A DNA stretch of 6,539 bases from Pseudomonadota bacterium (GTDB lineage: Bacteria; Myxococcota; Polyangia; Polyangiales; Polyangiaceae): positions 1 through 6,539 of the forward strand of contig JAEZYO010000826.1 in NCBI GenBank assembly GCA_023419055.1, read 5' to 3'. Below the pieces are notes generated by a model. That model saw only the letters and a list, made by a program, of their open reading frames with translations. It did not search any database and was not told the DNA's origin. Every line of letters begins with the position of its first letter. Positions within the stretch are counted from its first letter, which is position 1. Positions 1 to 6,539 of this stretch are shown here, in pieces. A program made the translations under genes and the position numbers.

Positions 1-17
1 ATCCGAGCCTGTTTCTC

Positions 18-87
18 GTCCTCGCCGGCGGATCCGGCGGCAGCTCTCCTAAGGCCGCTCGCGTGCGTTCGACTCGCACCGGGGACA
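18..87 (+). tRNA. trnR: tRNA-Arg (anticodon CCU), compact D arm
   Basis: The acceptor stem 18-24/80-86 pairs at all seven positions, with G-U allowed. The T stem 63-67/75-79 is perfect around a TTCGACT loop. The anticodon loop 46-52 reads CTCCTAA with CCT at 48-50; its stem 41-45/53-57 has one A-C mismatch (42/56). The D arm is a 3-bp stem, 25-27/35-37, with a 7-nt GCGGATC loop, and no bases 8-9 separate it from the acceptor stem. The discriminator is A87 and CCA is not encoded. The same D arm recurs in the ACG and CCG arginine units, so this is a related family. Confidence 0.75.
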
Positions 88-89
88 CG

Positions 90-134
90 GGGCTTCGCTC
101 TCGCCGAGCGGCAGTTTCCGGCGAGGGTGAGCCC
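90..134 (+). other. Long imperfect hairpin inside the tRNA array
   Basis: A 6-bp outer stem (90-95/129-134) and an 8-bp inner stem (98-105/120-127) flank a small internal loop, giving about 14 bp closed by a 14-nt terminal loop. It occupies the slot where a tRNA would be expected between Arg(CCU) and Asp, but no T loop or anticodon arm can be assigned. It may be a processing signal, a collapsed tRNA or a small structured RNA; its function is unknown. Confidence 0.5.
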
Positions 135-142
135 ATGCTCAT

Positions 143-214
143 GCTGCGTGATGCGACTGGCGTCGCAGCTCGATTGTCGATCGAGTGAGACGAGTTCGAT
201 CCTCGTACGCAGCG
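143..214 (+). tRNA. trnD: tRNA-Asp (GUC)
   Basis: This is a fully canonical cloverleaf. The acceptor stem 143-149/207-213 is perfect. The D stem 152-155/164-167 closes an 8-nt loop containing GG. The anticodon stem 169-173/181-185 is perfect around TTGTCGA, with GTC at 176-178. The variable region is 4 nt, and the T stem 190-194/202-206 holds TTCGATC. The discriminator G214 is the expected Asp identity base. CCA is not encoded (CTA follows). Confidence 0.95.
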
Positions 215-218
215 CTAC

Positions 219-287
219 ACGGAGTAGGTCATGGTGACCGGTCGGATTCCAAATCCGTAGGACAGCGTTCGATTCGCTGGCACCGTG
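219..287 (+). tRNA. trnW: tRNA-Trp (CCA anticodon), compact D arm
   Basis: The acceptor stem 219-225/280-286 pairs at six of seven positions (A223 faces A282). The anticodon loop TTCCAAA (247-253) carries CCA at 249-251, on a stem with four of five pairs. The T stem 263-267/275-279 is perfect with TTCGATT. The D stem 227-230/236-239 (GGTC/GACC) closes a 5-nt ATGGT loop and only one linker base precedes it. Discriminator G287 fits Trp. CCA is not encoded, and the next unit starts two bases later. Confidence 0.8.
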
Positions 288-288
288 C

Positions 289-358
289 GGGGATGTGCGT
301 TGGCGCGCGGTCTTTCCTTGCAAGAAGGAACAGGCGAGTTCGATTCTCGACATCTCCA
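289..358 (+). tRNA. trnA: tRNA-Ala (UGC), compact D arm
   Basis: The acceptor stem 289-295/351-357 has seven pairs including a G-U at the third position (G291/T355). That is the G3:U70 pair that specifies alanine, and A358 is the expected discriminator. The anticodon loop CTTGCAA (317-323) has TGC at 319-321 on a five-pair stem. The T loop is TTCGATT with four of five stem pairs. The D arm is reduced: a 4-bp TGCG/CGCG stem at 296-299/306-309 follows the acceptor stem directly and closes about 6 nt. Confidence 0.85.
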
Positions 359-367
359 CTTTCGTGA

Positions 368-441
368 CGCCGGCATGGGCCTCGAGGTGAGGCTTCGTCC
401 CTGGTACGGACGCGAGACCAGTTCGACTCTGGTGCCGGCTC
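368..441 (+). tRNA. trnT: tRNA-Thr (GGU), small D loop
   Basis: The acceptor stem 368-374/434-440 has six of seven pairs; the terminal C368/T440 is mismatched. The anticodon stem 396-400/408-412 is perfect around CTGGTAC, with GGT at 403-405. The T stem 417-421/429-433 is perfect with TTCGACT. The D region forms a 5-bp stem 379-383/389-393 with a 5-nt GAGGT loop. The discriminator would be C441, which is unusual, and CCA is not encoded. Confidence 0.8.
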
Positions 442-456
442 TGCGGGCTCACCTTC

Positions 457-472
457 TTTCGGTTCGCCGAAA
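457..472 (+). other. UUCG hairpin in a 39-nt array spacer
   Basis: TTTCGG/CCGAAA form a perfect 6-bp stem with a TTCG tetraloop in the spacer between Thr and Gly(UCC). No T tract follows, so it is not a typical intrinsic terminator. It could be an RNA-processing or stability element. Confidence 0.5.
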
Positions 473-480
473 CATTCTTC

Positions 481-552
481 GCGCGTTTGGTGTATGCGGC
501 AGCATGGCTGGCTTCCAACCAGCAGGTGACGGCTCGATTCCGTCAACGCGCA
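481..552 (+). tRNA. trnG: tRNA-Gly (UCC)
   Basis: The acceptor stem 481-487/545-551 is perfect. The D stem 490-493/502-505 closes an 8-nt loop with GG. The anticodon stem 507-511/519-523 is perfect around CTTCCAA, with TCC at 514-516. The T stem 528-532/540-544 is perfect, but the loop is CTCGATT, so base 54 is C instead of T. The discriminator A552 differs from the U73 of most bacterial tRNA-Gly. CC but not CCA follows. Confidence 0.92.
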
Positions 553-564
553 CCCCTACAACTT

Positions 565-638
565 GCAGTCGAGGTGTTACAGCAGCACGTCTCGTTGCCA
601 GCGAGAGAGCGCGGGTGCGACTCCCGCCGACTGCACCA
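565..638 (+). tRNA. trnG: tRNA-Gly (GCC) with encoded CCA
   Basis: The acceptor stem 565-571/628-634 is perfect. The D stem 574-577/585-588 closes a 7-nt loop. The anticodon stem 590-594/602-606 is perfect around TTGCCAG, with GCC at 597-599. The T stem 611-615/623-627 is perfect, but the loop is TGCGACT, so position 55 is G, where almost all tRNAs have T (pseudouridine). The discriminator is A635 and CCA is encoded at 636-638. Confidence 0.9.
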
Positions 639-642
639 AACT

Positions 643-714
643 GACGCGCAGCACCGGGTGCGGCGATCGCTGCAAACGATCGCTGGGTCGGATCATCCCC
701 GACGCGCGTCTCCA
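643..714 (+). tRNA. trnC: tRNA-Cys (GCA) with 3-nt D loop and aberrant T loop
   Basis: The acceptor stem 643-649/704-710 is perfect. The anticodon stem 665-669/677-681 is perfect around CTGCAAA, with GCA at 672-674. T711 is the U73 discriminator that defines tRNA-Cys, and CCA is encoded at 712-714. The D arm is a 4-bp stem 651-654/658-661 closing only CGG. The T stem 687-691/699-703 is perfect, but its loop is ATCATCC and lacks the TTC-A core. Both halves of the tertiary elbow are therefore altered while identity elements are kept. Confidence 0.85.
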
Positions 715-725
715 AGAACCTGGGA

Positions 726-793
726 TCCCCCACCGACGGACGGCGCGCCGCCTTCTAAGCGGTAAACGGCAGGTTCGAATCCTGCTGGGGGAG
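726..793 (+). tRNA. trnR: tRNA-Arg (UCU), compact D arm
   Basis: The acceptor stem 726-732/786-792 and the T stem 769-773/781-785 are perfect, with loop TTCGAAT. The anticodon loop CTTCTAA has TCT at 754-756 on a five-pair stem (747-751/759-763). Only 14 nt lie between acceptor and anticodon stems, holding a 3-bp D stem 733-735/741-743 with a 5-nt ACGGA loop. The discriminator is G793 and CCA is not encoded. Confidence 0.85.
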
Positions 794-797
794 CTTC

Positions 798-871
798 GTC
801 CGATTCTTCTAGCTGGCTCAGGAAGCTCGACTCTCGATCGAGAAAGGCGGGTTCGAATCCCGCATCGGACG
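798..871 (+). tRNA. trnE: tRNA-Glu (CUC)
   Basis: This unit is canonical and resembles bacterial tRNA-Glu in acceptor, D and T arms. The acceptor stem 798-804/864-870 is perfect. The D stem 807-810/820-823 closes a 9-nt loop with GG. The anticodon stem 826-830/838-842 is perfect around CTCTCGA, with CTC at 833-835. The T stem 847-851/859-863 holds TTCGAAT. The discriminator is G871, followed by CCC rather than CCA. Confidence 0.93.
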
Positions 872-877
872 CCCACT

Positions 878-950
878 AGCCCTGCCGGCGGACCCGGCGC
901 TCGGTTTACGAAACCAGGTGGCGAAGGTTCGACTCCTTCCAGGGCTGCCA
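878..950 (+). tRNA. trnR: tRNA-Arg (ACG) with encoded CCA, compact D arm
   Basis: The acceptor stem 878-884/940-946 and the T stem 923-927/935-939 are perfect, with loop TTCGACT. The anticodon loop TTACGAA has ACG at 908-910; the A34 would be a TadA inosine site. The anticodon stem 901-905/913-917 has one C-A mismatch (902/916). The D arm is 3 bp (885-887/895-897) with a 7-nt GCGGACC loop and no 8-9 linker, as in the CCU and CCG arginine units. G947 is followed by encoded CCA (948-950). Confidence 0.85.
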
Positions 951-952
951 CT

Positions 953-1021
953 GCTCTTGCCTGCGGATCAGGCTCTGCGCCTCCGAAGCGTGGATCTCGA
1001 GTTCGACTCTCGACGGGAGCG
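953..1021 (+). tRNA. trnR: tRNA-Arg (CCG), compact D arm
   Basis: The acceptor stem 953-959/1014-1020 has seven pairs including two G-U. The D stem 960-962/970-972 closes a 7-nt GCGGATC loop identical to that of Arg(CCU). The anticodon loop CTCCGAA has CCG at 983-985 on a five-pair stem with wobbles. The T stem 997-1001/1009-1013 is perfect with TTCGACT. The discriminator is G1021. Only CC separates it from the next unit, so an encoded CCA is absent or was overlapped. Confidence 0.85.
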
Positions 1022-1023
1022 CC

Positions 1024-1095
1024 GCGGGCGGGTGAAACGGCTCCACATCAGGTTCATGGCCTGAAGACAGCGAGGTTCGATTCCTCGTGCCCGCA
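1024..1095 (+). tRNA. trnM: tRNA with anticodon CAU (elongator Met type)
   Basis: The acceptor stem 1024-1030/1088-1094 has seven pairs. The D stem is 3 bp (1032-1034/1044-1046) with a 9-nt loop containing GG. The anticodon stem 1048-1052/1060-1064 is perfect around TTCATGG, with CAT at 1055-1057. The T stem 1071-1075/1083-1087 is perfect with TTCGATT, and the discriminator is A1095. The first base pair is G-C and the anticodon stem lacks three consecutive G-C pairs, so this is not an initiator. A lysidine-modified Ile tRNA remains possible. Confidence 0.85.
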
Positions 1096-1098
1096 TCC

Positions 1099-1167
1099 CG
1101 CCACGACGTTCGGAACGACGGCGCTCTCATACGGCGCGCGGACAGCGTTCGACTCGCTGCGTGGCGA
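1099..1167 (+). tRNA. Second CAU tRNA (Met or Ile2) with 3-nt D loop
   Basis: The acceptor stem 1099-1105/1160-1166 and the T stem 1143-1147/1155-1159 are perfect, with loop TTCGACT. The anticodon loop CTCATAC has CAT at 1128-1130 on five pairs (1121-1125/1133-1137). The D arm is a 4-bp stem 1107-1110/1114-1117 closing only CGG, the same triloop as the Cys unit. The first pair is C-G, not the initiator C-A mismatch. Whether it is charged with Met, or with Ile after TilS modification, cannot be told by eye. Confidence 0.8.
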
Positions 1168-1184
1168 CGACTCTCTCACGATGC

Positions 1185-1258
1185 TCCCCGGTGGTGTAAC
1201 GGCAGCATGCCGGTCTTTGGCTCCGGCGACCGAGGTTCGAATCCTCGACGGGGAACCA
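1185..1258 (+). tRNA. trnQ: tRNA-Gln (UUG) with encoded CCA
   Basis: The acceptor stem 1185-1191/1248-1254 has six of seven pairs (G1191/A1248 mismatched). The D stem 1194-1197/1205-1208 closes AACGGCA. The anticodon loop CTTTGGC has TTG at 1217-1219; the stem 1210-1214/1222-1226 has a T-T mismatch next to the loop. The T stem 1231-1235/1243-1247 is perfect with TTCGAAT. A1255 and CCA (1256-1258) are encoded. The 5' half and D arm closely match bacterial tRNA-Gln. Confidence 0.92.
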
Positions 1259-1274
1259 CGAGTTTCGGTTTTCT

Positions 1275-1349
1275 CAGAGACATGGTCCAAGGTGGGCCGC
1301 GTGCCTCGGGCGCACGACTGGCCGGGTTCGATTCCCGGGTCTCTGACCA
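1275..1349 (+). tRNA. trnP: tRNA-Pro (CGG) with encoded CCA
   Basis: The acceptor stem 1275-1281/1339-1345 is perfect. The D stem 1284-1287/1295-1298 closes a 7-nt loop with GG. The anticodon stem 1300-1304/1312-1316 is perfect around CTCGGGC, with CGG at 1307-1309. The variable region is 5 nt, and the T stem 1322-1326/1334-1338 is perfect with TTCGATT. The discriminator is A1346 and CCA is encoded at 1347-1349. Confidence 0.93.
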
Positions 1350-1350
1350 T

Positions 1351-1423
1351 GCTGGGTTAGCCTTCTGGTGAAGGCATCGCTCTTACAAAGCGAGAAAGCA
1401 CGGTTCGATCCCGTGACCCAGTA
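1351..1423 (+). tRNA. trnV: tRNA-Val (UAC)
   Basis: This is a canonical cloverleaf. The acceptor stem 1351-1357/1416-1422 is paired, with a terminal G-U. The D stem 1360-1363/1372-1375 closes an 8-nt loop with GG. The anticodon stem 1377-1381/1389-1393 is perfect around CTTACAA, with TAC at 1384-1386. The T stem 1399-1403/1411-1415 holds TTCGATC. The discriminator is A1423, followed by CCG, one base from CCA. Confidence 0.95.
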
Positions 1424-1428
1424 CCGAA

Positions 1429-1500
1429 GGAGCGCAACGGACTTACGTCCTGGGATCTCTGATACGGATCCCGCGCTGGGCTCGATTCCCAGGCGCTCCA
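1429..1500 (+). tRNA. trnI: tRNA-Ile (GAU), 4-nt D loop without GG
   Basis: The acceptor stem 1429-1435/1493-1499 is perfect. The anticodon loop CTGATAC has GAT at 1461-1463 on five pairs (1454-1458/1466-1470) that could extend by two more. The D stem 1439-1442/1447-1450 (GGAC/GTCC) closes only TTAC, so the usual G18-G19 are missing. The T stem 1476-1480/1488-1492 is perfect, but the loop is CTCGATT (C54). The discriminator is A1500, followed by CCC. Confidence 0.85.
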
Positions 1501-1540
1501 CCCTCCCTTCGCTTCATTCATCGATCGATTGTCGAAACCC

Positions 1541-1625
1541 GTCGCTGTGGTGGAATTGGGCATACACGGCAGGCTGAGAACCTGCGCCCTTTCGGGGCAT
1601 CCCGGTTCGATCCCGGGCAGCGACA
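1541..1625 (+). tRNA. trnL: tRNA-Leu (GAG), class II
   Basis: The acceptor stem 1541-1547/1618-1624 and the T stem 1601-1605/1613-1617 are perfect, with TTCGATC. The anticodon stem 1569-1573/1581-1585 is perfect around CTGAGAA, with GAG at 1576-1578. The variable arm 1586-1600 is long and forms its own small stem (GCCC/GGGG-type). The D region (1548-1568) has the typical Leu form with GGG in the loop. A73 (1625) is the Leu discriminator; CCG follows. Confidence 0.95.
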
Positions 1626-1643
1626 CCGGCTCCTCACCACCCC

Positions 1644-1727
1644 GCTCGCCTGGTGGAACGGCAGACACAGTCGGCTCAAACCCGGCCGCCCTTTTCGGGC
1701 ATGCGCGTTCGAATCGCGCGGCGAGCA
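1644..1727 (+). tRNA. trnL: tRNA-Leu (CAA), class II
   Basis: The acceptor stem 1644-1650/1720-1726 and the T stem 1703-1707/1715-1719 are perfect, with TTCGAAT. The anticodon stem 1670-1674/1682-1686 has five pairs around CTCAAAC, with CAA at 1677-1679. The long variable arm 1687-1702 forms GCCC/GGGC around TTTTC. The discriminator is A1727, followed by CCC. It ends 16 nt before the HNH start codon, so the HNH ribosome-binding site sits directly behind it. Confidence 0.93.
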
Positions 1728-1743
1728 CCCCACGGAGTGAACC

Positions 1744-2253
1744 ATGTCACACAAGACGCTGCTTTTGACCCCCTACTACTTGCCGATCAAGGTGCTCCGC
1801 TGGGAGGACGCCGTGAAGATGCGCTACGAAGGCACCGCAGACGTGGTCGCCGAGTACGAGGCGGAGATCTGCTCGCCCTCGGTCACCTGGAAGGTGCCCG
1901 CGGTCTTGCGCCTTCGCAAGCTTTCGCGCAGCGACAAGCGCGGCGTCAAGTTCTCGCGCGTGAACGTCTACCAGCGCGACGGCTACCGCTGCCAGTACTG
2001 CCGGCAGAAGTTCACGGCGCGCGAGCTCTCGTACGATCACGTCGTCCCGCGCTCGGCAGGCGGCAGGACCACGTGGGACAACATCGTGACCGCGTGCAAG
2101 CCGTGCAACACGCGCAAGGCGAACCGCACCTGCGACGAGAGCGGCATGTGGCCGCTGTCGCCGCCGCGACAACCCAAGAACCTTCCGATGGGGGGTCCGA
2201 TCATCGATCGCGACTCGGCACCGGAGGAGTGGCAAGCGTTCCTGCCCGCCTGA
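1744..2253 (+). CDS. HNH endonuclease (HNH_5-like, zinc-ribbon type) within the tRNA array
   Basis: This 169-residue protein belongs to the widespread small bacterial HNH family. A short N-terminal region (about residues 1-65) carries a PYYLPIKVLRW motif. It leads into the nuclease core: Cys83-x2-Cys86, Asp98-His99 (general base), a PRSAGGRTTWDN segment with Asn113, Cys118-x2-Cys121 and Asn122. The four cysteines should bind structural zinc and His99, Asn113 and Asn122 fit the beta-beta-alpha-metal active site, so the enzyme looks intact. The ATG is preceded by GGAG (1734-1737) at a 6-nt spacing. Its flanks are tRNA-Leu upstream and four tRNA-Ser downstream, all on the same strand, so it is probably transcribed in the array. 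The DNA target is unknown; a homing or array-maintenance role is inference, since many homologues are ordinary chromosomal genes. Confidence 0.92.
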   Translation: MSHKTLLLTPYYLPIKVLRWEDAVKMRYEGTADVVAEYEAEICSPSVTWKVPAVLRLRKLSRSDKRGVKFSRVNVYQRDGYRCQYCRQKFTARELSYDHVVPRSAGGRTTWDNIVTACKPCNTRKANRTCDESGMWPLSPPRQPKNLPMGGPIIDRDSAPEEWQAFLPA

Positions 2254-2278
2254 GCGTGCTCCGGCACGCTCGGGCAGG
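2241..2278 (+). terminator. Large hairpin overlapping the HNH stop codon
   Basis: An 8-bp outer stem (2241-2248/2271-2278) encloses a 7-bp inner stem (2253-2259/2264-2270) with a TCCG tetraloop. The TGA codon (2251-2253) lies inside the structure. There is no following T tract, so it could be a terminator-like or transcript-processing hairpin that separates the HNH message from the downstream tRNA-Ser units. Confidence 0.5.
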
Positions 2279-2303
2279 CGGGTCCGCCGCTCGATCTCGA
2301 ATG

Positions 2304-2388
2304 GGAAGACGAACTCGGGAGGTCCCGAGCACCGCTTGGAAAGCGGATGGCACGCGCCGCGTGTGCGTTTCGACTACGTCGTCTTCCG
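2304..2388 (+). tRNA. trnS: tRNA-Ser (GGA), class II with minimal D loop
   Basis: The acceptor stem 2304-2310/2381-2387 is perfect. A GAA linker precedes a 6-bp D stem, 2314-2319/2324-2329, closing only AGGT. The anticodon loop TTGGAAA has GGA at 2338-2340 on four of five pairs. The variable arm 2351-2356/2358-2363 is a strong stem. The T loop TTCGACT (2369-2375) sits on four of five pairs. The discriminator G2388 is the Ser base, followed by CCC. Confidence 0.85.
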
Positions 2389-2393
2389 CCCTC

Positions 2394-2482
2394 CGAGGGC
2401 GCCGCTCACGGAAGAGCAGCCGGCTTTGAACACCGGCACGGAGCGCTTCGGCGCGGCGGTTCGATTCCGTCGCCCTCGGCCA
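2394..2482 (+). tRNA. trnS: tRNA-Ser (UGA), class II with encoded CCA
   Basis: The acceptor stem 2394-2400/2472-2478 is perfect. The D stem 2404-2407/2414-2417 closes ACGGAA. The anticodon loop TTTGAAC has TGA at 2427-2429; the stem 2420-2424/2432-2436 has a C-A mismatch next to the loop. The variable arm 2443-2446/2451-2454 closes a stable TTCG tetraloop. The T stem 2455-2459/2467-2471 is paired around TTCGATT. G2479 and CCA (2480-2482) are encoded. Confidence 0.88.
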
Positions 2483-2483
2483 A

Positions 2484-2620
2484 GGTAGGTGAAGCGAGCA
2501 GGGCTCGCCGCGGCTTCGAACACGGATGGACCTCCGGGTCTGAAAGTTCCCCCCGTCGGGGATCGACGCGCTTCGCGGTCCTCGAAGGAGGGCGCGGCGC
2601 GTCGATTCTTCCGCCTACCG
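2484..2620 (+). tRNA. Oversized tRNA-Ser (CGA)-like unit, possibly broken
   Basis: The 5' half matches its Ser neighbours: a GGTAGGT acceptor strand, a GAA linker (2491-2493) and a 6-bp D stem 2494-2499/2503-2508 closing AGG. It has a CGA anticodon at 2517-2519, although its anticodon stem is weak, with a C-A mismatch. The matching acceptor strand is at 2613-2619 with Ser discriminator G2620, so the unit is 137 nt, about 50 more than normal. The excess lies between anticodon and T arms and holds several hairpins. The T-like loop GTCGATT (2601-2607) has poor stem pairing. An alternative 86-nt fold uses 2490-2496/2569-2575 as acceptor. It could be a tRNA with an insertion or a pseudogene. Confidence 0.4.
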
Positions 2621-2626
2621 CCTTTT

Positions 2627-2712
2627 GGAAGCTGAATCGCTCGTGGGAGCGGGCCCCGTTGCTAGCGGGTGCGATGTCGCAAGGCATTGGGGATCGAGAC
2701 CTCCGGCTTCCG
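2627..2712 (+). tRNA. trnS: tRNA-Ser (GCU), class II with unusual T loop
   Basis: The acceptor stem 2627-2633/2705-2711 is paired (one G-U), followed by the GAA linker of this Ser group. The D stem 2638-2641/2648-2651 closes CGTGGG. The anticodon loop TTGCTAG has GCT at 2661-2663 on four of five pairs. The variable arm TGCGA/TCGCA (2670-2674/2677-2681) is perfect. The T arm 2688-2704 has four of five pairs and the loop ATCGAGA, with A instead of T54. The discriminator is G2712 and CCA is absent. Confidence 0.75.
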
Positions 2713-2740
2713 CTACGTCACCGCCACTCCGCCCGACCTC

Positions 2741-3580
2741 TCACTCCGCCGCTGACGCGCGCCACGTTCCCGTGGCTGCCGCAGCCCGCGCGAAGTCGCT
2801 GAAATCGCGCGCCTTCCGCCCGAGCGCGAGCTCGATGCCGTTCGCGACGTGGGAGTTGTGCCCGTCGAGCGTAGCCTCGAACAGATCGGTGAGGAAGTAG
2901 ACCTCCTCTGCGGGTAGGTGCGGCAGGAGCGCCTCCTGGTACTCCGCCTTGGAGATCGGGACGTACGTGATGGTGCGGCCGGCGGCCGCCGAGATCTCCG
3001 CCAGCGCTTCGTGGAACGTCAAGAGACGCGGCCCGGTCAGCTCGTAGATCTGCCCCGAGTGACGCGAGTCAGTCAGCGCTTCCACCGCGACGTCGGCGAT
3101 GTCCTCGATGTCGAGGAAGGGCTCGGCGCAGTCGCCGCCAGGGAAGGCGAACACTCCGCTCCGAACCTGATCGGCGAAGTGCCCTTCGCTGAAGTTCTGG
3201 GCGAACCAGGCGGCACGAACGACGGTGAAGCGCGCGCCGCTGTCTCGCACCGCCTGCTCGCTCGGCAACACTTGAGGCTCGCCGCGGCCGGAGAGCAGCA
3301 CGATGTTCTCGACGCCGCTCGACACCGCTTGCTTGCTGAAGGCGCGGATCAGCTCGGCGGCGCCCGGGACAGCGAGATCGGGCGCGAAGGTCAGGTACAC
3401 CGACGCGACACCGCGCAGCGCCTCGTCCCAAGTCGCCAGGTCGGCCCAATCGAACCGCGCTGGACCACGCCGGGAGGCGAGCCGCGTCGGACGACCGAGC
3501 CGCGTGAGCCGTTCAGCCACGCGCCGGCCCGTTTTCCCGCTCGCACCCACGATCAACGTCGCTTTCTCGTTCTTTTGCAT
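2741..3580 (-). CDS. NmrA-family NAD(P)-binding protein (putative NAD(P)H-dependent oxidoreductase)
   Basis: This 279-residue protein opens with a Rossmann fold: a beta strand TLIVGAS and the glycine motif G12-A-S-G15-K-T-G18. Arginines near residues 33-38 (RLASRR) fit NADP(H) preference. The SDR catalytic Tyr-x3-Lys is not visible, as in NmrA/atypical-SDR proteins. The C-terminal part includes AEYQEALLPHLPAEEVYFLTDLF, typical of the NAD(P)H-binding family related to QorB and azoreductase-like proteins. It may reduce a quinone or other small electrophile, or act as a redox sensor; the substrate is not deducible. The start at 3580 is supported by AGGAGA (complement of 3588-3593) 7 nt upstream. 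It is divergent from the LysR gene, a layout usual for a LysR target, and converges on the end of the tRNA array with 28 bp between. Confidence 0.88.
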   Translation of the reverse strand: MQKNEKATLIVGASGKTGRRVAERLTRLGRPTRLASRRGPARFDWADLATWDEALRGVASVYLTFAPDLAVPGAAELIRAFSKQAVSSGVENIVLLSGRGEPQVLPSEQAVRDSGARFTVVRAAWFAQNFSEGHFADQVRSGVFAFPGGDCAEPFLDIEDIADVAVEALTDSRHSGQIYELTGPRLLTFHEALAEISAAAGRTITYVPISKAEYQEALLPHLPAEEVYFLTDLFEATLDGHNSHVANGIELALGRKARDFSDFARAAAATGTWRASAAE

Positions 3581-3617
3581 GACTTTCTCTCCTGCTTGCT
3601 GCTGGCCTTACGAGAAT

Positions 3618-3630
3618 CTGCATCCTGCAG
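3618..3630. promoter_or_regulatory. Inverted repeat in the nmrA-like/lysR intergenic region
   Basis: CTGCA-TCC-TGCAG is a perfect 5-bp inverted repeat with a 3-bp centre, about 38 bp upstream of the NmrA-like start. It is a possible regulator or cofactor-dependent binding site, though short enough to arise by chance. Confidence 0.3.
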
Positions 3631-3638
3631 GCACGCAT

Positions 3639-3657
3639 TGCGAGCAGCTAAATCGCA
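3639..3657. promoter_or_regulatory. Candidate LysR-type box (interrupted dyad)
   Basis: TGCGA-N9-TCGCA is an interrupted dyad within the shared intergenic region, with the T...A ends characteristic of LysR-family recognition boxes. It lies 17 bp before the LysR start codon and about 60 bp from the NmrA-like start, a suitable location for control of both genes. Confidence 0.45.
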
Positions 3658-3664
3658 GCCTATC

Positions 3665-3680
3665 GTTGCATTCATGCAAC
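3665..3680. promoter_or_regulatory. Palindrome overlapping the LysR start codon
   Basis: GTTGCAT-TC-ATGCAAC is a perfect 7-bp inverted repeat whose right arm contains the LysR ATG (3674-3676). A protein bound here would block lysR transcription, and the RNA hairpin could also hide the start codon. Autorepression is the simplest reading. Confidence 0.45.
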
Positions 3681-4609
3681 AGAAGCCGCGCCCCCCGAAG
3701 GCTCGCGGGCTCGCCTCCGATCTCGACTGGGACGACGTGCGACTCTTCCTGGGTCTGTGCCGCTCGCGCTCCGTGCGTGACGCCGCGGAGCAGCTCGGCG
3801 TCGATCCTTCCACCGTGTCACGGCGCCTGGCCGGGCTCGAGGAGACGCTCGCGACCACTTTGTTCGATCGCGGTCGCGAAGGGATCGCCCTGACCGAAGC
3901 GGCGGAAGATTTGATGCCGGTGGCCGAGGAGCTCGAAGCCGTGATGACTCGCTTCACGAGCGCGGCGGAGGGCCTCGAACGCGCGGCGGCCGGGCTCGTG
4001 CGCATCACTTGCCCCTCCGACGTCGCCGAGGTCGTCGTGGCGCCGCTGCTCGGCGAGCTCATCGATCGCTACCCGGCGCTTCGCATCGAGCTCGCTCCGA
4101 GCGAGACCCTCCTGGATCTCACGCGCCGAGAAGCCGACATCGCGCTCCGCACGGTGCGCCCCGAGCGCGGCGATCTGGTCGTGACCAAGGTCGCCGAGGT
4201 GCGCTGGGTGCTCGCTGCGGCGCCTGAGCTCGCCAAGCGGCTCGGCACTCTGCGCTCGTGGAGCGACGCGCCCTGGATCGGCTGGGGGGAACGCCTTTCG
4301 AGCAGCTGGCCCGCTCGCTGGGTGACGGCGCGTCTGCCCGGCGGCGATCCCGTCGTTCGCTCGGACAGCTTCATGCTGCAGGTGTCCCTGGTCGCTTCGG
4401 GGCTCGGCGTGGCGCTGGTGCCGCAGCCGAGCGCCCGGCACTATGGGCTCGTGCCCCTCAAGCTCGCCCCGGCGCTCCGAGAAGCGGCGAGCGAGTGGCC
4501 CGTGGCCGAGCTTTTCCTCGTGACGCATCGAGCGCTCCGCCAGGTCCCTCGCGTGAGCGTGGTGTGGGACCTCATCGTCGCCCGCCTTTCGTCCCGAAAG
4601 TTCGCGTGA
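3674..4609 (+). CDS. LysR-family transcriptional regulator
   Basis: This is a 311-residue regulator. The N-terminal winged helix-turn-helix lies at about residues 18-80: LDWDDVRLFLGLCRSRSVRDAAEQLGVDPSTVSRRLAGLE, then TTLFDRGREGIALTEA. It is followed by a linker helix and a substrate-binding domain to about residue 305, containing DIALRTVRPERGDLVV and the LVASGLGVALVPQ signature near the C-terminus. Length is normal for the family. The reading frame stays open far upstream, to about 2918, but that stretch is antisense to the NmrA-like gene. The ATG at 3674 fits the domain start; no clear Shine-Dalgarno precedes it, and it lies in a palindrome. Sequence style is closest to LysR regulators that control a divergent NAD(P)H-binding oxidoreductase. 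The inducer is unknown. Confidence 0.92.
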   Translation: MQQKPRPPKARGLASDLDWDDVRLFLGLCRSRSVRDAAEQLGVDPSTVSRRLAGLEETLATTLFDRGREGIALTEAAEDLMPVAEELEAVMTRFTSAAEGLERAAAGLVRITCPSDVAEVVVAPLLGELIDRYPALRIELAPSETLLDLTRREADIALRTVRPERGDLVVTKVAEVRWVLAAAPELAKRLGTLRSWSDAPWIGWGERLSSSWPARWVTARLPGGDPVVRSDSFMLQVSLVASGLGVALVPQPSARHYGLVPLKLAPALREAASEWPVAELFLVTHRALRQVPRVSVVWDLIVARLSSRKFA

Positions 4610-4612
4610 GCG

Positions 4613-5386
4613 TCAACAGTGCGAGCGGGCCTTGAGAAAGCGTTCCGGGGGCTCGCCGGTCACGCTTCGAAACTCGCGGACCAGGTGAGACTGGTCGCAG
4701 TAGCCCGCGTCGTGAGCGAGCGACGTCAGCGTCTCCCCTCGCGCGTACCCCGACACCACTCGCCGGAAACGCAGGATGGACGCGAACTGCTTGGGTGAAG
4801 CGCCGACCGCGCGGCGGAAGCGCTTCTCGAGCGGGTCCTGGCTGATCCCGAGCTCCTTCGCGAGCGCGCCGATTCGCAGCGCCCCACCCGCGCGCTGAAT
4901 GGCGCGGACCGCCGCAGCGACGGTGCTGTCCGGCTCGCGTGCCCGAAGGCGCCGGCTCAAGTGAGCATCGACCAGCGATACCCGCGCCTCGGCCGTTCGC
5001 GCCTCGGCCAGGCGCTCCTCGAGCTCGCGAAACTCTGCTCGCGACCAGACGTCGTCGAGCGCGATCACGTCGCCGAACCACTCGTGCAAGGGTTGTTCGA
5101 AGAACTGAGCCGCCCCGAGCTCGGTGAACGCGGTCACCACGATGCCGCCGCGAGCAGACGTCTGCATCCGCCGCAGCGTGTTCCGCACGCCGACGAGCCC
5201 CGAGCTCGCGACCGGGCGCGCGCCCTCCGGCCCTAGCAGGCCGGCCGAGCCCGCGTAGCGAAAGCCGAGCATCAACCCGGCGGTGGGCAGGACTGCGCTC
5301 TCCTCCATCGCCTCCGTCTCCATCACGGAGATCGAGCGCACGAACGGCCGAAGCCGAGGACTCGGAGCGAATGCCGAGACGCGCAT
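4613..5386 (-). CDS. AraC-family transcriptional regulator
   Basis: This is a 257-residue protein. The N-terminal 140 residues (PSPRLRPFVRSISVMETE, then GVRNTLRRMQTSARGGIVVTAFTELGAAQFFEQPLHEWFGDVIAL) match the sensor region often called DUF6597. The C-terminal 100 residues carry the two AraC helix-turn-helix motifs: IGALAKELGISQDPLEKRFRRAVGASPKQF and LTSLAHDAGYCDQSHLVREFRSVTGEPPERFL. The family activates or represses nearby genes in response to small molecules; the ligand is unknown. It is divergent from the SnoaL-like lipoprotein gene with 98 bp between start codons, so that gene is the first candidate target. Its stop codon is 3 bp from the LysR stop, leaving no room for a separate terminator. 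No clear Shine-Dalgarno is visible at the start. Confidence 0.92.
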   Translation of the reverse strand: MRVSAFAPSPRLRPFVRSISVMETEAMEESAVLPTAGLMLGFRYAGSAGLLGPEGARPVASSGLVGVRNTLRRMQTSARGGIVVTAFTELGAAQFFEQPLHEWFGDVIALDDVWSRAEFRELEERLAEARTAEARVSLVDAHLSRRLRAREPDSTVAAAVRAIQRAGGALRIGALAKELGISQDPLEKRFRRAVGASPKQFASILRFRRVVSGYARGETLTSLAHDAGYCDQSHLVREFRSVTGEPPERFLKARSHC

Positions 5387-5455
5387 GCGCTCAGCTTACA
5401 CCGCCGCCTTCGAGTCACCAGCCGCCGCTCGCGATCGATGAATTTGTCCAAGTCC

Positions 5456-5467
5456 CGCCTCGAGGCG
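5456..5467. promoter_or_regulatory. Perfect 12-bp palindrome upstream of the SnoaL-like gene
   Basis: CGCCTCGAGGCG is a perfect palindrome in the araC/snoaL divergent region, 17 bp before the preferred start at 5485. It could be an operator. AraC proteins usually bind direct repeats, so another regulator or chance is possible. Confidence 0.25.
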
Positions 5468-5484
5468 CGCCGCAGGCTGCCTGT

Positions 5485-6075
5485 ATGTCGTTCGCTTTTC
5501 GCCACCTGGCCACGCTCCTTGCGCTCGGCGCCTGCTCGGCAGCGCCGCCGCCCAGCGCGCAAAGCCCCGAAGTCCCCGCCTCGGTATCTCCCACCCCCAA
5601 GGATTCCATGACGACCGACACGCCCGCCCGCAATAAGCAGACCATCCAGAGGATCTACGAAGACTGCATCAACACCGGTGACCTCGCGCGAATGGCCGAG
5701 TTCGTCGACGCCTCGTACGTGGGCCCGAACGGCGAGCGAGGCCCCGAAGGCTTCGCCGCCACGGTCGCAGGGCTGCGAGCCGGCTTTCCTGACATCCACT
5801 TCACGCTCGAAGATCTGGTCGCGGACGGCGATCGCGTCGCGCTGCGCTGGAAGTGGGAGGGCACGCACCAGAACCCCTTCCGTGGGTTCGAGCCGACCGG
5901 CAAGCGCGTCTCGAACACGGCGATCGCCATCTATGAGCTCCGCGGGGGCAAGGTCGTGCGCGCCTGGCTGCAAACCGACCGGCTCGGTTTCCTCGACGCC
6001 ATGGGCGCCCTGCCAGAAAGCGTGACCGCGCGACTGCGGGGCGGCCCGCAGAACTCGCCGGGGCCTCAGCGCTAG
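5485..6075 (+). CDS. SnoaL-like ester-cyclase-fold protein, putative lipoprotein
   Basis: It is 196 residues if started at 5485. The first 17 residues form a lipoprotein signal, MSFAFRH-LATLLALGA-C, with Cys17 in a LGAC lipobox; a low-complexity Pro/Ser/Ala linker reaches to about residue 40. Residues 45-175 match the SnoaL-like fold (NTF2 superfamily): NKQTIQRIYEDCINTGDLARMAEFVD, then GFPDIHFTLEDLVADGDRVALRWKWEGTH and GKRVSNTAIAIYELRGGKVVRAW. Such proteins include polyketide cyclases and many of unknown role, so activity is not assigned. An internal ATG at 5608 is preceded by AAGGA (5599-5603) and would give a cytoplasmic 155-residue form. The start at 5485 has only a weak ribosome-binding site. 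The open frame continues upstream to 5371, into the AraC gene, and that part is not believed. Divergent AraC control is plausible. Confidence 0.85.
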   Translation: MSFAFRHLATLLALGACSAAPPPSAQSPEVPASVSPTPKDSMTTDTPARNKQTIQRIYEDCINTGDLARMAEFVDASYVGPNGERGPEGFAATVAGLRAGFPDIHFTLEDLVADGDRVALRWKWEGTHQNPFRGFEPTGKRVSNTAIAIYELRGGKVVRAWLQTDRLGFLDAMGALPESVTARLRGGPQNSPGPQR

Positions 6076-6076
6076 G

Positions 6077-6093
6077 CGAGCACGCACGGCTCG
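6077..6093 (+). terminator. Weak hairpin after the SnoaL-like gene
   Basis: CGAGC/GCTCG form a 5-bp stem with a 7-nt loop two bases after the stop codon. No T tract follows, so it is a poor terminator candidate. Confidence 0.25.
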
Positions 6094-6097
6094 TGGC

Positions 6098-6103
6098 TAA
6101 GAT
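6098..6103 (+). promoter_or_regulatory. Possible -10 element (TAAGAT) for the downstream gene
   Basis: TAAGAT fits a TAnnnT -10 box and stands only 6 nt before the ATG at 6110. Transcription from it would start at or next to the ATG, giving a leaderless or nearly leaderless mRNA. No Shine-Dalgarno lies in front of that ATG, which supports this reading. Confidence 0.45.
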
Positions 6104-6109
6104 AGCGGC

Positions 6110-6539
6110 ATGGCCACGAGCTACGAACAGGCGGTCGCTGCGCTCTACCAGGGACCTCTGGAGACCTTCGTGGCGGAGCGCAAGCGGCTATCCGGGGAGC
6201 TCAGGGGCTCAGGCGACAAGGAGGGCTCGGCCAAGCTCGCCAAACTCGCCCGGCCCCCGATTTCGGCCTGGGTCGTGAACCAGCTCTACTGGCGCGAGCG
6301 CGACTCTTTCGACGAGTTGCTCGAGAGCGCCGCCGAGCTCAAAAAGGGCGACCTGGGCGCGACCTCGGCTCACCGTGAAGCACTCGCGACGTTGCGGGGT
6401 CGAGCCGCCACGATCCTCACCGAATCCGGTCACGGTGCGACCGACGCCACGCTCCGCAAAGTGACGACCACGCTCTCGGCGCTGGCCGCGAACGGAGGCT
6501 TCGATCCGGATCTGCCCGGCGCGCTCAGCGCCGATCGCG
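6110..6539 (+). CDS. Conserved hypothetical protein, 5' part only
   Basis: The frame opens with ATG at 6110 (MATSYEQAVAALYQGPLETF) and stays open for 143 codons to the end of the window. The visible part is Ala/Leu/Arg-rich and predicted helical: VAERKRLSGELRGSGDKEGSAKLAKLARPPISAWVVNQLYW, then HREALATLRGRAATILTE and TLRKVTTTLSALAANGGF. The KLARPPISAWVVNQLYWRER block looks like the conserved core. There is no signal peptide or membrane segment. I do not recognise an assigned function. The style resembles hypothetical proteins of Myxococcota that are soluble and helical. It lies 34 bp after the SnoaL-like gene but probably has its own promoter. Confidence 0.75.
   Translation, partial: MATSYEQAVAALYQGPLETFVAERKRLSGELRGSGDKEGSAKLAKLARPPISAWVVNQLYWRERDSFDELLESAAELKKGDLGATSAHREALATLRGRAATILTESGHGATDATLRKVTTTLSALAANGGFDPDLPGALSADR

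Follow-up and report, generated by a model that had tools for sequence, protein, structure and literature searches.

The locus analysed here raises the question of what a dense array of transfer RNA (tRNA) genes with shrunken D-arms is for, in a bacterium whose relatives hold an ordinary tRNA set elsewhere in the genome. The window, a stretch of 6,539 nucleotides (nt) from a member of the Polyangiaceae (Myxococcota; contig JAEZYO010000826.1 of assembly GCA_023419055.1, positions 1 to 6,539 of the forward strand), carries 24 tRNA units between positions 18 and 2712, interrupted by a gene for an HNH endonuclease. We favour, with a probability of roughly 0.6, the reading that the array, a tRNA array unit in kind, provides an auxiliary and nearly complete set of elongator tRNAs that is strongly diverged, is kept foldable and chargeable, and has had many of its D-loops minimised by selection. 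At the level of sequence this reading is carried by the architecture of the array, its recurrence in relatives, covariation, a bias towards particular isoacceptors, retained charging determinants, and the association with HNH and frequently with Ro60. The locus is of a known kind and the selected D-loop minimisation is its new feature; no description of minimal D-loops in bacterial tRNA arrays, or of Ro60 in myxobacterial arrays, was found in titles and abstract openings of the open-licence literature.

The units were located by a relaxed cloverleaf finder that scores the acceptor, anticodon and T arms, tolerates at most one mismatch in each of these stems, asks for a TTCRA-type T-loop, and measures the stretch from the acceptor to the anticodon stem (tRNA positions 8-26, here called the D region). 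It returned 23 units at 18-2711 with scores of at least 39, and 40 dinucleotide shuffles of the window yielded one match in total at 38 or above (0.025 per window), which rules out chance cloverleaves. The acceptor and T stems are intact, with single mismatches in some units, and 23 of the 24 units have the stems (at most one mismatch each) and T-loop of canonical elongators, these being also the finder's own limits. The exception is Ser(CGA) at 2484-2619, which has a very long variable region (about 60 nt) and an interrupted anticodon stem; it lies beyond the finder's limits and was read by eye and folded, so that the total of 24 given in the initial annotation is right. A more regular counterpart of Ser(CGA) is found near the right end of the closest related array. 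ARAGORN recognised 17 tRNAs in the window, placing the anticodon at position 30 in Cys and the second CAU unit, at 31 in Trp and Ala, and at 32-37 in the remaining 13; these positions agree with shortened arms and rule out an artefact of a single finder.

All units lie on the plus strand, 24 of them in 2.7 kb, and the spacers between them are short. A tRNA array unit is delimited by at least 20 tRNA genes at a density of at least two per kb, and the many tRNA genes of the window at high density correspond to this, as does the embedded HNH gene, a frequent though not universal component. The units had been described as consecutive, but the intact HNH gene at 1744-2253 interrupts them.

A search with the HNH protein led to the closest relative, L001, a 3.2-kb contig of a Sorangium metagenome-assembled genome whose array is largely syntenic with that of the window and carries more units upstream of its Asp unit, which indicates that the left edge of the window cuts the array. 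HNH matches at an E-value of 1e-20 or better occur in 183 of 377 genomes of the phylum, though the weaker among these are not necessarily linked to an array. The finder was run on 42 loci (the window, L001, and 40 fetched with their flanks), of which 21 are arrays with at least eight tRNA units at a score of at least 37; three of these (L071, L076, L096) retain only 5-6 units at 42 or above. Every counted unit is on one strand in all 12 arrays whose layout was inspected, and the array of L068 covers all 20 amino acids.

The extent of D-loop reduction was scored as a minimal GG loop, meaning a GG-containing loop of 3-5 nt on a perfect stem of at least four pairs, no more than one of them G-U; this definition allows alternative pairings of ordinary arms. 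Such loops are found in 13 of 23 window units against 1.1 expected by shuffling (11 of 23 without the weak Pro and Thr cases), in 13 of 21 units of L001 against 0.6, and in 114 of 429 units of the 21 myxobacterial arrays at a score of at least 42 against 10.1 (104 of 377 distinct). The window and L001 have the highest share among arrays with more than ten units. Housekeeping tRNAs, which are separate from the array in the three related genomes G001, G374 and G340, gave 3 of 108 against 2.2 expected, all three of them Glu; this set was assembled from RF00005 matches and finder scores of at least 44, and tRNAs escaping both would go uncounted. Compact D-arms in the ordinary tRNAs of the host, which the initial annotation had named as a refuting finding, are thus not seen among the housekeeping tRNAs of these relatives, and a common quirk of myxobacterial tRNAs is ruled out for the three genomes. 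Eight tRNA groups outside the myxobacteria, with 6-30 tRNAs each (Nostoc, Pseudarthrobacter, M. intracellulare, M. avium, Tsukamurella, Acidiphilium and two phages), gave 5 of 129 against 1.8 expected, ruling out a general trait of tRNA arrays as far as these eight are concerned. They are what remained of 16 hand-picked stretches, 5 from the 164 phage records and 11 from the 93 plasmid records that matched HNH; the other eight stretches held 0-4 tRNAs.

In many units the D-loop appears to have been minimised to a 3-5-nt GG loop by one of two routes: the arm is shortened around a 4-bp (base pair) stem, or the stem is zipped to 6 bp. The earlier claim of shrunken D-arms in about half of the units holds in number, although it had lumped these two geometries; its list missed Asp, Val and Pro, and Pro as well as Thr, which it included, are weak cases. 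That shrunken loops usually keep GG is borne out by the minimal loops counted above, although the 4-nt loop of Ile lacks it. The features of the array are as follows.

18-87, plus strand: tRNA-Arg(CCT), short D-arm, loop CGGAT; 56.2 bits with the compact-unit covariance model R1 (see below)
143-214, plus strand: tRNA-Asp(GTC), zipped D-arm of 6 bp, loop TGGC
219-287, plus strand: tRNA-Trp(CCA), short D-arm, loop TGG (5 bp) or ATGGT (4 bp); one acceptor mismatch
289-358, plus strand: tRNA-Ala(TGC), short D-arm; G3:U70 kept
368-441, plus strand: tRNA-Thr(GGT), possible zipped D-arm of 6 bp, loop GAGGT; weak, since it is missing from the minimum-energy fold and the Thr class does not zip
481-552, plus strand: tRNA-Gly(TCC), ordinary D-arm
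565-635, plus strand: tRNA-Gly(GCC), near-ordinary D-arm
643-711, plus strand: tRNA-Cys(GCA), short D-arm of 4 bp, loop CGG; U73
726-793, plus strand: tRNA-Arg(TCT), short D-arm (14 nt)
798-871, plus strand: tRNA-Glu(CTC), ordinary D-arm
878-947, plus strand: tRNA-Arg(ACG), short D-arm, loop CGGAC; 58.0 bits with the compact-unit covariance model
953-1021, plus strand: tRNA-Arg(CCG), short D-arm, loop CGGAT
1024-1095, plus strand: first tRNA with CAU anticodon, D region 17 nt, large loop
1099-1167, plus strand: second tRNA with CAU anticodon, not of initiator type, short D-arm of 4 bp, loop CGG
1185-1255, plus strand: tRNA-Gln(TTG), ordinary D-arm
1275-1346, plus strand: tRNA-Pro(CGG), 6 bp and loop AGG can pair; probably an ordinary arm that can pair in another way
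1351-1423, plus strand: tRNA-Val(TAC), zipped D-arm of 6 bp, loop TGGT
1429-1500, plus strand: tRNA-Ile(GAT), D-stem of 4 bp, loop TTAC without GG
1541-1625, plus strand: tRNA-Leu(GAG), ordinary D-arm
1644-1727, plus strand: tRNA-Leu(CAA), ordinary D-arm
1744-2253, plus strand: HNH endonuclease gene, 169 amino acids (aa), PF14279/PF01844; within the array, directly after the Leu genes
2304-2388, plus strand: tRNA-Ser(GGA), zipped D-arm of 6 bp, loop AGGT; one T-stem mismatch
2394-2479, plus strand: tRNA-Ser(TGA), D-stem of 4 bp, loop ACGGAA
2484-2619, plus strand: probable tRNA-Ser(CGA), D-arm of 6 bp, loop AGG; anticodon stem interrupted, possibly defective; fold made of 2486-2617
2627-2712, plus strand: tRNA-Ser(GCT), zipped D-arm of 6 bp, loop GTGG; one T-stem mismatch

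The short route is evident from the length of the D region, which is 18-22 nt in the 108 housekeeping tRNAs of relatives and 14-17 nt in nine of the 23 window units (four Arg, Cys, Trp, Ala and both CAU). A D region of at most 16 nt was found in 62 of 468 units of the 21 arrays (score at least 37) and in none of the 108 housekeeping tRNAs. The shortening is concentrated in certain classes, namely CAU (13/17), Cys (8/12), Arg(ACG) (11/18), Arg(CCG) (7/16), Trp (5/9), Arg(TCT) (5/7, one 7-nt case being probably chance) and Ala(TGC) (4/11, one 9-nt case being probably chance), and no Asp, Asn, Lys, Gln, Gly, Leu or Phe unit of the 21 arrays has it. A typical short arm consists of 0-1 nt, 4 bp, a short GG loop, 4 bp and 2-3 nt. 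In the best layout of each unit, a 4-bp stem with a GG loop of 3-6 nt is present in Cys 8/10, CAU 10/14, Arg 22/26, Trp 6/8 and Ala 3/3, where shuffling predicts 1.1, 0.5, 1.9, 0.8 and 0.5, respectively. Pairing was also compared with 5000 dealt shuffles in layouts set beforehand, and there Cys paired in 32 of 32 cells (2/5000 shuffles), CAU in 38 of 40 (0/5000; three rows set aside) and Arg in 67 of 80 (0/5000). Base A20 of Arg was considered as a cause of the kept loop; the D region contains GGA in 29 of 44 Arg units and in 142 of 385 others, a modest enrichment that is not relied on.

In Ser, Val and Asp the D stretch is of normal length and the stem can be extended to 6 bp, so that the loop shrinks. 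Counting distinct D regions in their best register, a full 6-bp stem with a 3-5-nt loop is formed in Ser 18/31, Val 10/18, Asp 7/21 and Thr 6/21, with GG in the loop of 17, 9, 7 and 6 of these; shuffled regions give 0.06-0.11 and the corresponding housekeeping tRNAs 0/9, 0/8, 0/2 and 0/7. The dealt-shuffle test in the best register is not counted as evidence, because its rows were preselected for pairing and Lys and Gln, which zip in 1 of 36, also beat every shuffle; it was repeated with layouts fixed beforehand. The two inner pairs, which are loop positions in an ordinary arm, are then both present in 10 of 14 Ser, 12 of 17 Val, 16 of 21 Asp, 9 of 14 His and 4 of 12 Phe rows. Their covariation is reached by 0/5000 dealt shuffles each for Ser, Val and Asp, 4/5000 for Phe and 18/5000 for His. 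With the same fixed layout they are rare in Lys (1/18), Gln (0/18), Gly (1/19), Glu (1/17), Asn (0/15), Ile (0/8), Ala (0/16), Pro (1/20), Leu (0/30) and housekeeping tRNAs (2/102). On these counts Ser, Val and Asp zip as classes, His and Phe do so in part, and Thr does not.

Standard models fare poorly with these units. The RF00005 cut-off, the gathering score of canonical elongators, was reached by 6 of 24 units with default filters and by 8 with permissive ones, and among the nine short-arm units by the first CAU unit only. Ser(TGA) was listed in the permissive Rfam search as tRNA-Sec, under the cut-off of that family, which may mask an RF00005 match. A dedicated covariance model was built from nine compact units of equal length from other arrays, none of them from the window and two of them from L001; a first MAFFT alignment of 35 sequences had misplaced gaps and was not used for it. 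The nine units share one cloverleaf, in which 95.8% of the cells are paired and all four helices show compensatory changes (0/500 shuffles). This model recovers 22 window units at E <0.1, and its top five are all short-arm units: Arg(ACG) (58.0 bits), Arg(CCT) (56.2), the second CAU (48.3), Arg(TCT) (42.6) and Cys (39.7). Of the other short-arm units, Arg(CCG) ranks 7th, Ala 8th, Trp 16th (20.9 bits) and the first CAU 20th. Since ordinary units of other arrays score up to 48.7 bits, the model is not specific for compact arms; what it shows is that the short-arm units of the window are tRNA-like RNAs. Rejection of most compact units by covariance models, which had been named beforehand as a refuting outcome, is literally seen with RF00005, but the units are recovered as tRNA-like by the compact-unit model. 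Minimum-energy folding gave the predicted D-arm in 11 of the 14 units tried, the exceptions being Arg(TCT), Arg(ACG) and Thr, and in Ser(GGA) the T-arm does not form.

Signs of use are also found outside the D-arm. Compared with published aminoacylation determinants (as given in PMC9976931), array units keep G3:U70 in Ala (23/25), U73 in Cys (12/12), G73 in Trp (9/9) and Asp (24/24), and A73 in Leu (46/46) and Pro (28/28), and the discriminator base is that of housekeeping tRNAs for the same amino acid in 376 of 429 array units. An encoded CCA does not separate the sets, since it occurs in 6 of 23 window, 94 of 429 array and 33 of 108 housekeeping units. The initiator combination of C1.A72 and three G-C pairs at the anticodon loop was seen in none of 17 CAU units, judged by eye (one L074 unit has C1.A72 alone), and the set therefore looks elongator-only. 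The suggestion of the initial annotation that the D-arms reflect ordered reduction under selection rather than decay is upheld by the recurrence in particular isoacceptors, the covarying D-stems, the retention of GG and of charging determinants, and the near-absence of such arms from the housekeeping tRNAs of three relatives. The array would presumably be transcribed as one or a few long precursors and its tRNAs charged by host synthetases, and the set may then supply elongation when housekeeping tRNAs are damaged or limiting. The minimised D-loop may remove bases read by tRNA-cutting or tRNA-modifying enzymes and keep G18/G19 for contact with the T-loop; AriB, for instance, is described as cleaving tRNA-Lys less well once D-loop base U16 has been changed (PMC12409363). 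Two further published precedents for such a stress-proof set are the trn operon of Anabaena, which antibiotics directed at translation induce (PMC10272220), and a D-armless tRNA that E. coli is able to use (PMC11551756).

Several observations weigh against an auxiliary set shaped by selection. One of two fixed Arg layouts fails (1383/5000 shuffles), as does Trp in both of its fixed layouts (345/5000 and 517/5000; 5 and 8 rows) and Thr, with inner pairs in 2 of 16 rows (470/5000). Thermodynamic z-scores range from +0.04 to -3.59 and are unremarkable for several short-arm units. The rows are not independent, L080, L081, L097 and L098 being closely related, and a few finder matches scoring 37-42 are probably chance. 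At position 73 the Gly units of the window carry A, whereas all 7 housekeeping Gly tRNAs carry T, and G-1 and C73 occur together in only 4 of 17 array His units. Ser(CGA) looks defective. T at position 8 is present in 21 of 54 units with a D region of at most 16 nt, against 266 of 375 longer array units and 107 of 108 housekeeping tRNAs; since U8 is often lost, the tertiary core may be weak. Finally, both the supply of elongation under damage and the removal of enzyme-read bases are proposed by analogy.

This erosion of U8 together with the D-arm is what one would expect if the units were functional spare tRNAs whose D-arms shrink by relaxed constraint, as in animal mitochondria, so that the shape brings no benefit and the stems covary only in order to fold. 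Such an account, which we consider possible and on balance unlikely, fits the strong divergence of the window units, 54-72% identical to their best housekeeping match for the same amino acid when housekeeping tRNAs of two genomes average 85% (21 pairs), and the description of Met, Cys and Trp determinants as mostly outside the D-arm (PMC9976931). It does not readily explain why the loops converge on short GG forms by two routes, or why the eight arrays of other bacteria and phages, where relaxation should act too, are without minimal loops.

A rather doubtful alternative is that the array was transferred as an anti-defence cassette of phage type and resists host immunity based on tRNA cleavage. 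It is suggested by the relatives of the HNH gene: in Myxococcus phage Mx1 (L162, 5905-6880) one lies between two Leu tRNAs, the phage having the HNH relative, a TROVE-annotated gene and a peptidyl-tRNA hydrolase among four tRNAs; in Virus Rctr197k one follows a series of Leu tRNAs; similar arrays occur on Nostoc and mycobacterial plasmids; and in the HNH tree the two phage rows share an unresolved fork with rows from myxobacteria. Those phage and plasmid arrays that were tested are, however, without minimal D-loops, and the phage and plasmid HNH branches are long (1.0-2.7 changes per column), which speaks against a recent transfer, although an old one is possible. The phage or transferred origin put forward in the initial annotation is not supported by the neighbourhood, since none of five window proteins scanned with Pfam belongs to a phage or integration family. 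Nor did any of the ten flanking reading frames scanned with Pfam in each of L081 and L074 belong to a mobile-element family, and words drawn from one HNH protein had no match in the IMG/VR virus collection. Downstream of the array, at 2741-6075, the window carries NmrA-like, LysR, AraC and SnoaL-like genes of ordinary chromosomal types. As in the window, the HNH relative directly adjoins Leu tRNAs in two phages (L162 5905-6880; L208 3240-4555).

The HNH gene of the window is intact. The Cys, His and Asn positions of the HNH/zinc motif are invariant in 18 sequences, in which the reading frame is conserved, and sequence matches in the PDB over the HNH part are HNH nucleases; an AlphaFold model of the protein (mean predicted local distance difference test score 85.8) is not used as evidence. 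By analogy with the HNH and SegB genes described in phage tRNA clusters (PMC6409571), on which the homing reading is based, the protein is most likely a nuclease of the homing type, which would maintain and spread the array.

A second linkage concerns Ro60. The L081 array holds a 569-aa frame (4525-6231) and the L074 array a 583-aa frame (11403-13154) with TROVE and vWA_Ro60 domains. A tblastn search with the L081 protein matched 13 of 51 loci, inside or beside HNH-tRNA arrays; 12 of these are among the 21 arrays and the other, L070, has seven units. Identity is only 23-26% for the matches in L068, L069, L070, L083 and L096; Ro60 is confirmed by Pfam in four of the 12 arrays (L081, L074, L068 and L069). 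No Ro60 gene is present in the visible part of the window array, which is cut at its left edge, and tblastn did not recover the TROVE-annotated gene of Mx1, which is cut at the edge of its stretch. In the phylum, TROVE matches occur in 33 of 356 genomes, and in twelve of these a TROVE match and an HNH match are no more than about 7 kb apart. One array, L083, has a match to the Y RNA YrlA at 6914-7029 on the minus strand (70.6 bits against a cut-off of 69), and none was found in seven other loci of the same search or in the seven loci of another. The YrlA match lies about 0.4 kb upstream, in the sense of the array, of the weak Ro60 match of L083. The array with a divergent Ro60 gene in L069 also holds a gene with an ARPP-1 domain (11181-12122).

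These Ro60 matches make a role in RNA damage more likely. They could also suggest that the units are not for translation and serve as decoys or regulatory RNAs, such as Ro60 ligands or baits for tRNA nucleases, an idea that gains from a Ro60 match in 12 of 21 arrays and a YrlA in one. Decoys would have no need for the kept Ala G3:U70, Cys U73 and Trp G73, or for coverage of up to 20 amino acids, and we regard this explanation as improbable. Pseudogene remnants of a degrading prophage or plasmid array, to which the irregular Ser(CGA), the few RF00005 passes and the ordinary types of the scanned downstream genes could point, are largely refuted by the compensatory changes in all four helices of the compact units, the kept determinants, the HNH frame conserved in 18 sequences and the repetition of the architecture in many arrays.

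Returning to the auxiliary elongator set, one may speculate further, with little confidence, that the myxobacterial arrays form a co-adapted shadow set with GG-minimal D-loops that sustains translation under tRNA attack, and that array-encoded Ro60 and Y RNA police or protect its fold via PNPase. In Deinococcus a Y RNA is reported to tether Ro60 to PNPase (PMC7790460), and an E. coli D-armless tRNA is described as having become usable after a pnp mutation (PMC11551756). Evasion of nucleases, service under tRNA attack as suggested in the initial annotation, and handling of array tRNAs by PNPase are accordingly offered as hypotheses by analogy.

Among described systems, the tRNA array units of Mycobacterium genomes, plasmids and phages (PMC5966550, PMC12803027) come closest, having likewise dozens of housekeeping-redundant tRNA genes for most amino acids and often an embedded HNH gene. 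Mycobacterial array tRNAs are stated to differ in the D-arm from chromosomal copies (PMC12803027), but the D-loops are ordinary in the two mycobacterial plasmid arrays tested here (minimal in 2/30 and 0/22 units), unlike those of the window array, and neither stretch has a Ro60 match. The trn operon of Anabaena/Nostoc is also similar, with 26 tRNA genes that are described as repressed until translation-targeting antibiotics act (PMC10272220), and in another Nostoc strain a related HNH gene precedes the array. It differs in being plasmid-borne, and the Nostoc array tested has ordinary D-arms (2/23 minimal). The RNA repair operon rsr-yrlBA-rtcBA (PMC7790460) has Ro60 in common with those of the arrays that have a match to it, and a YrlA Y RNA in common with one array, whereas here Ro60 lies in or beside tRNA arrays.

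As to the shape of the arms, the 6-bp D-stem and 4-nt loop described for tRNA-Sec (PMC7609411) is the geometry of the zipped Ser, Val and Asp arms, and Ser(GGA), Ser(GCT), Val and Asp of the window have it. The short arms resemble the short connector and 4-5-nt loop given for tRNA-Pyl in the same source, although most small loops of the arrays keep GG and the Pyl tRNAs described there are without it. The reduced tRNAs of animal mitochondria share small D-loops and lost connector bases with the arrays (PMC7609411); in the arrays, by contrast, the D-stem is kept at 4-6 bp and covaries, so that the units are not D-armless, and the genomes of relatives also hold an ordinary tRNA set. In distinction from both tRNA-Sec and tRNA-Pyl, the window units have ordinary sense anticodons for several amino acids. 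The anticodon of tRNA-Sec is UCA, and identity with it is ruled out by the anticodons GGA, GCT, TAC and GTC of the zipped units.

The arrays thus offer natural, recurrent and covarying D-loop minimisation across isoacceptors, in genomes that also hold ordinary tRNAs and in units that are still cloverleaves but take arm size to an extreme, a shape considered rare in bacteria. This amounts to a natural experiment on the purpose of the D-loop and a source of compact tRNAs ready for orthogonal translation, and the Ro60 linkage provides a testable connection between tRNA arrays and RNA damage. There is also a warning for annotation, in that standard models overlook or misname such units. The compact Arg(TCT) unit of L001 (1303-1371) is labelled tRNA-Pyl(CTA) by ARAGORN, and L074:13380-13452 passes the tRNA-Sec cut-off; small D-loops may give false Pyl or Sec calls.

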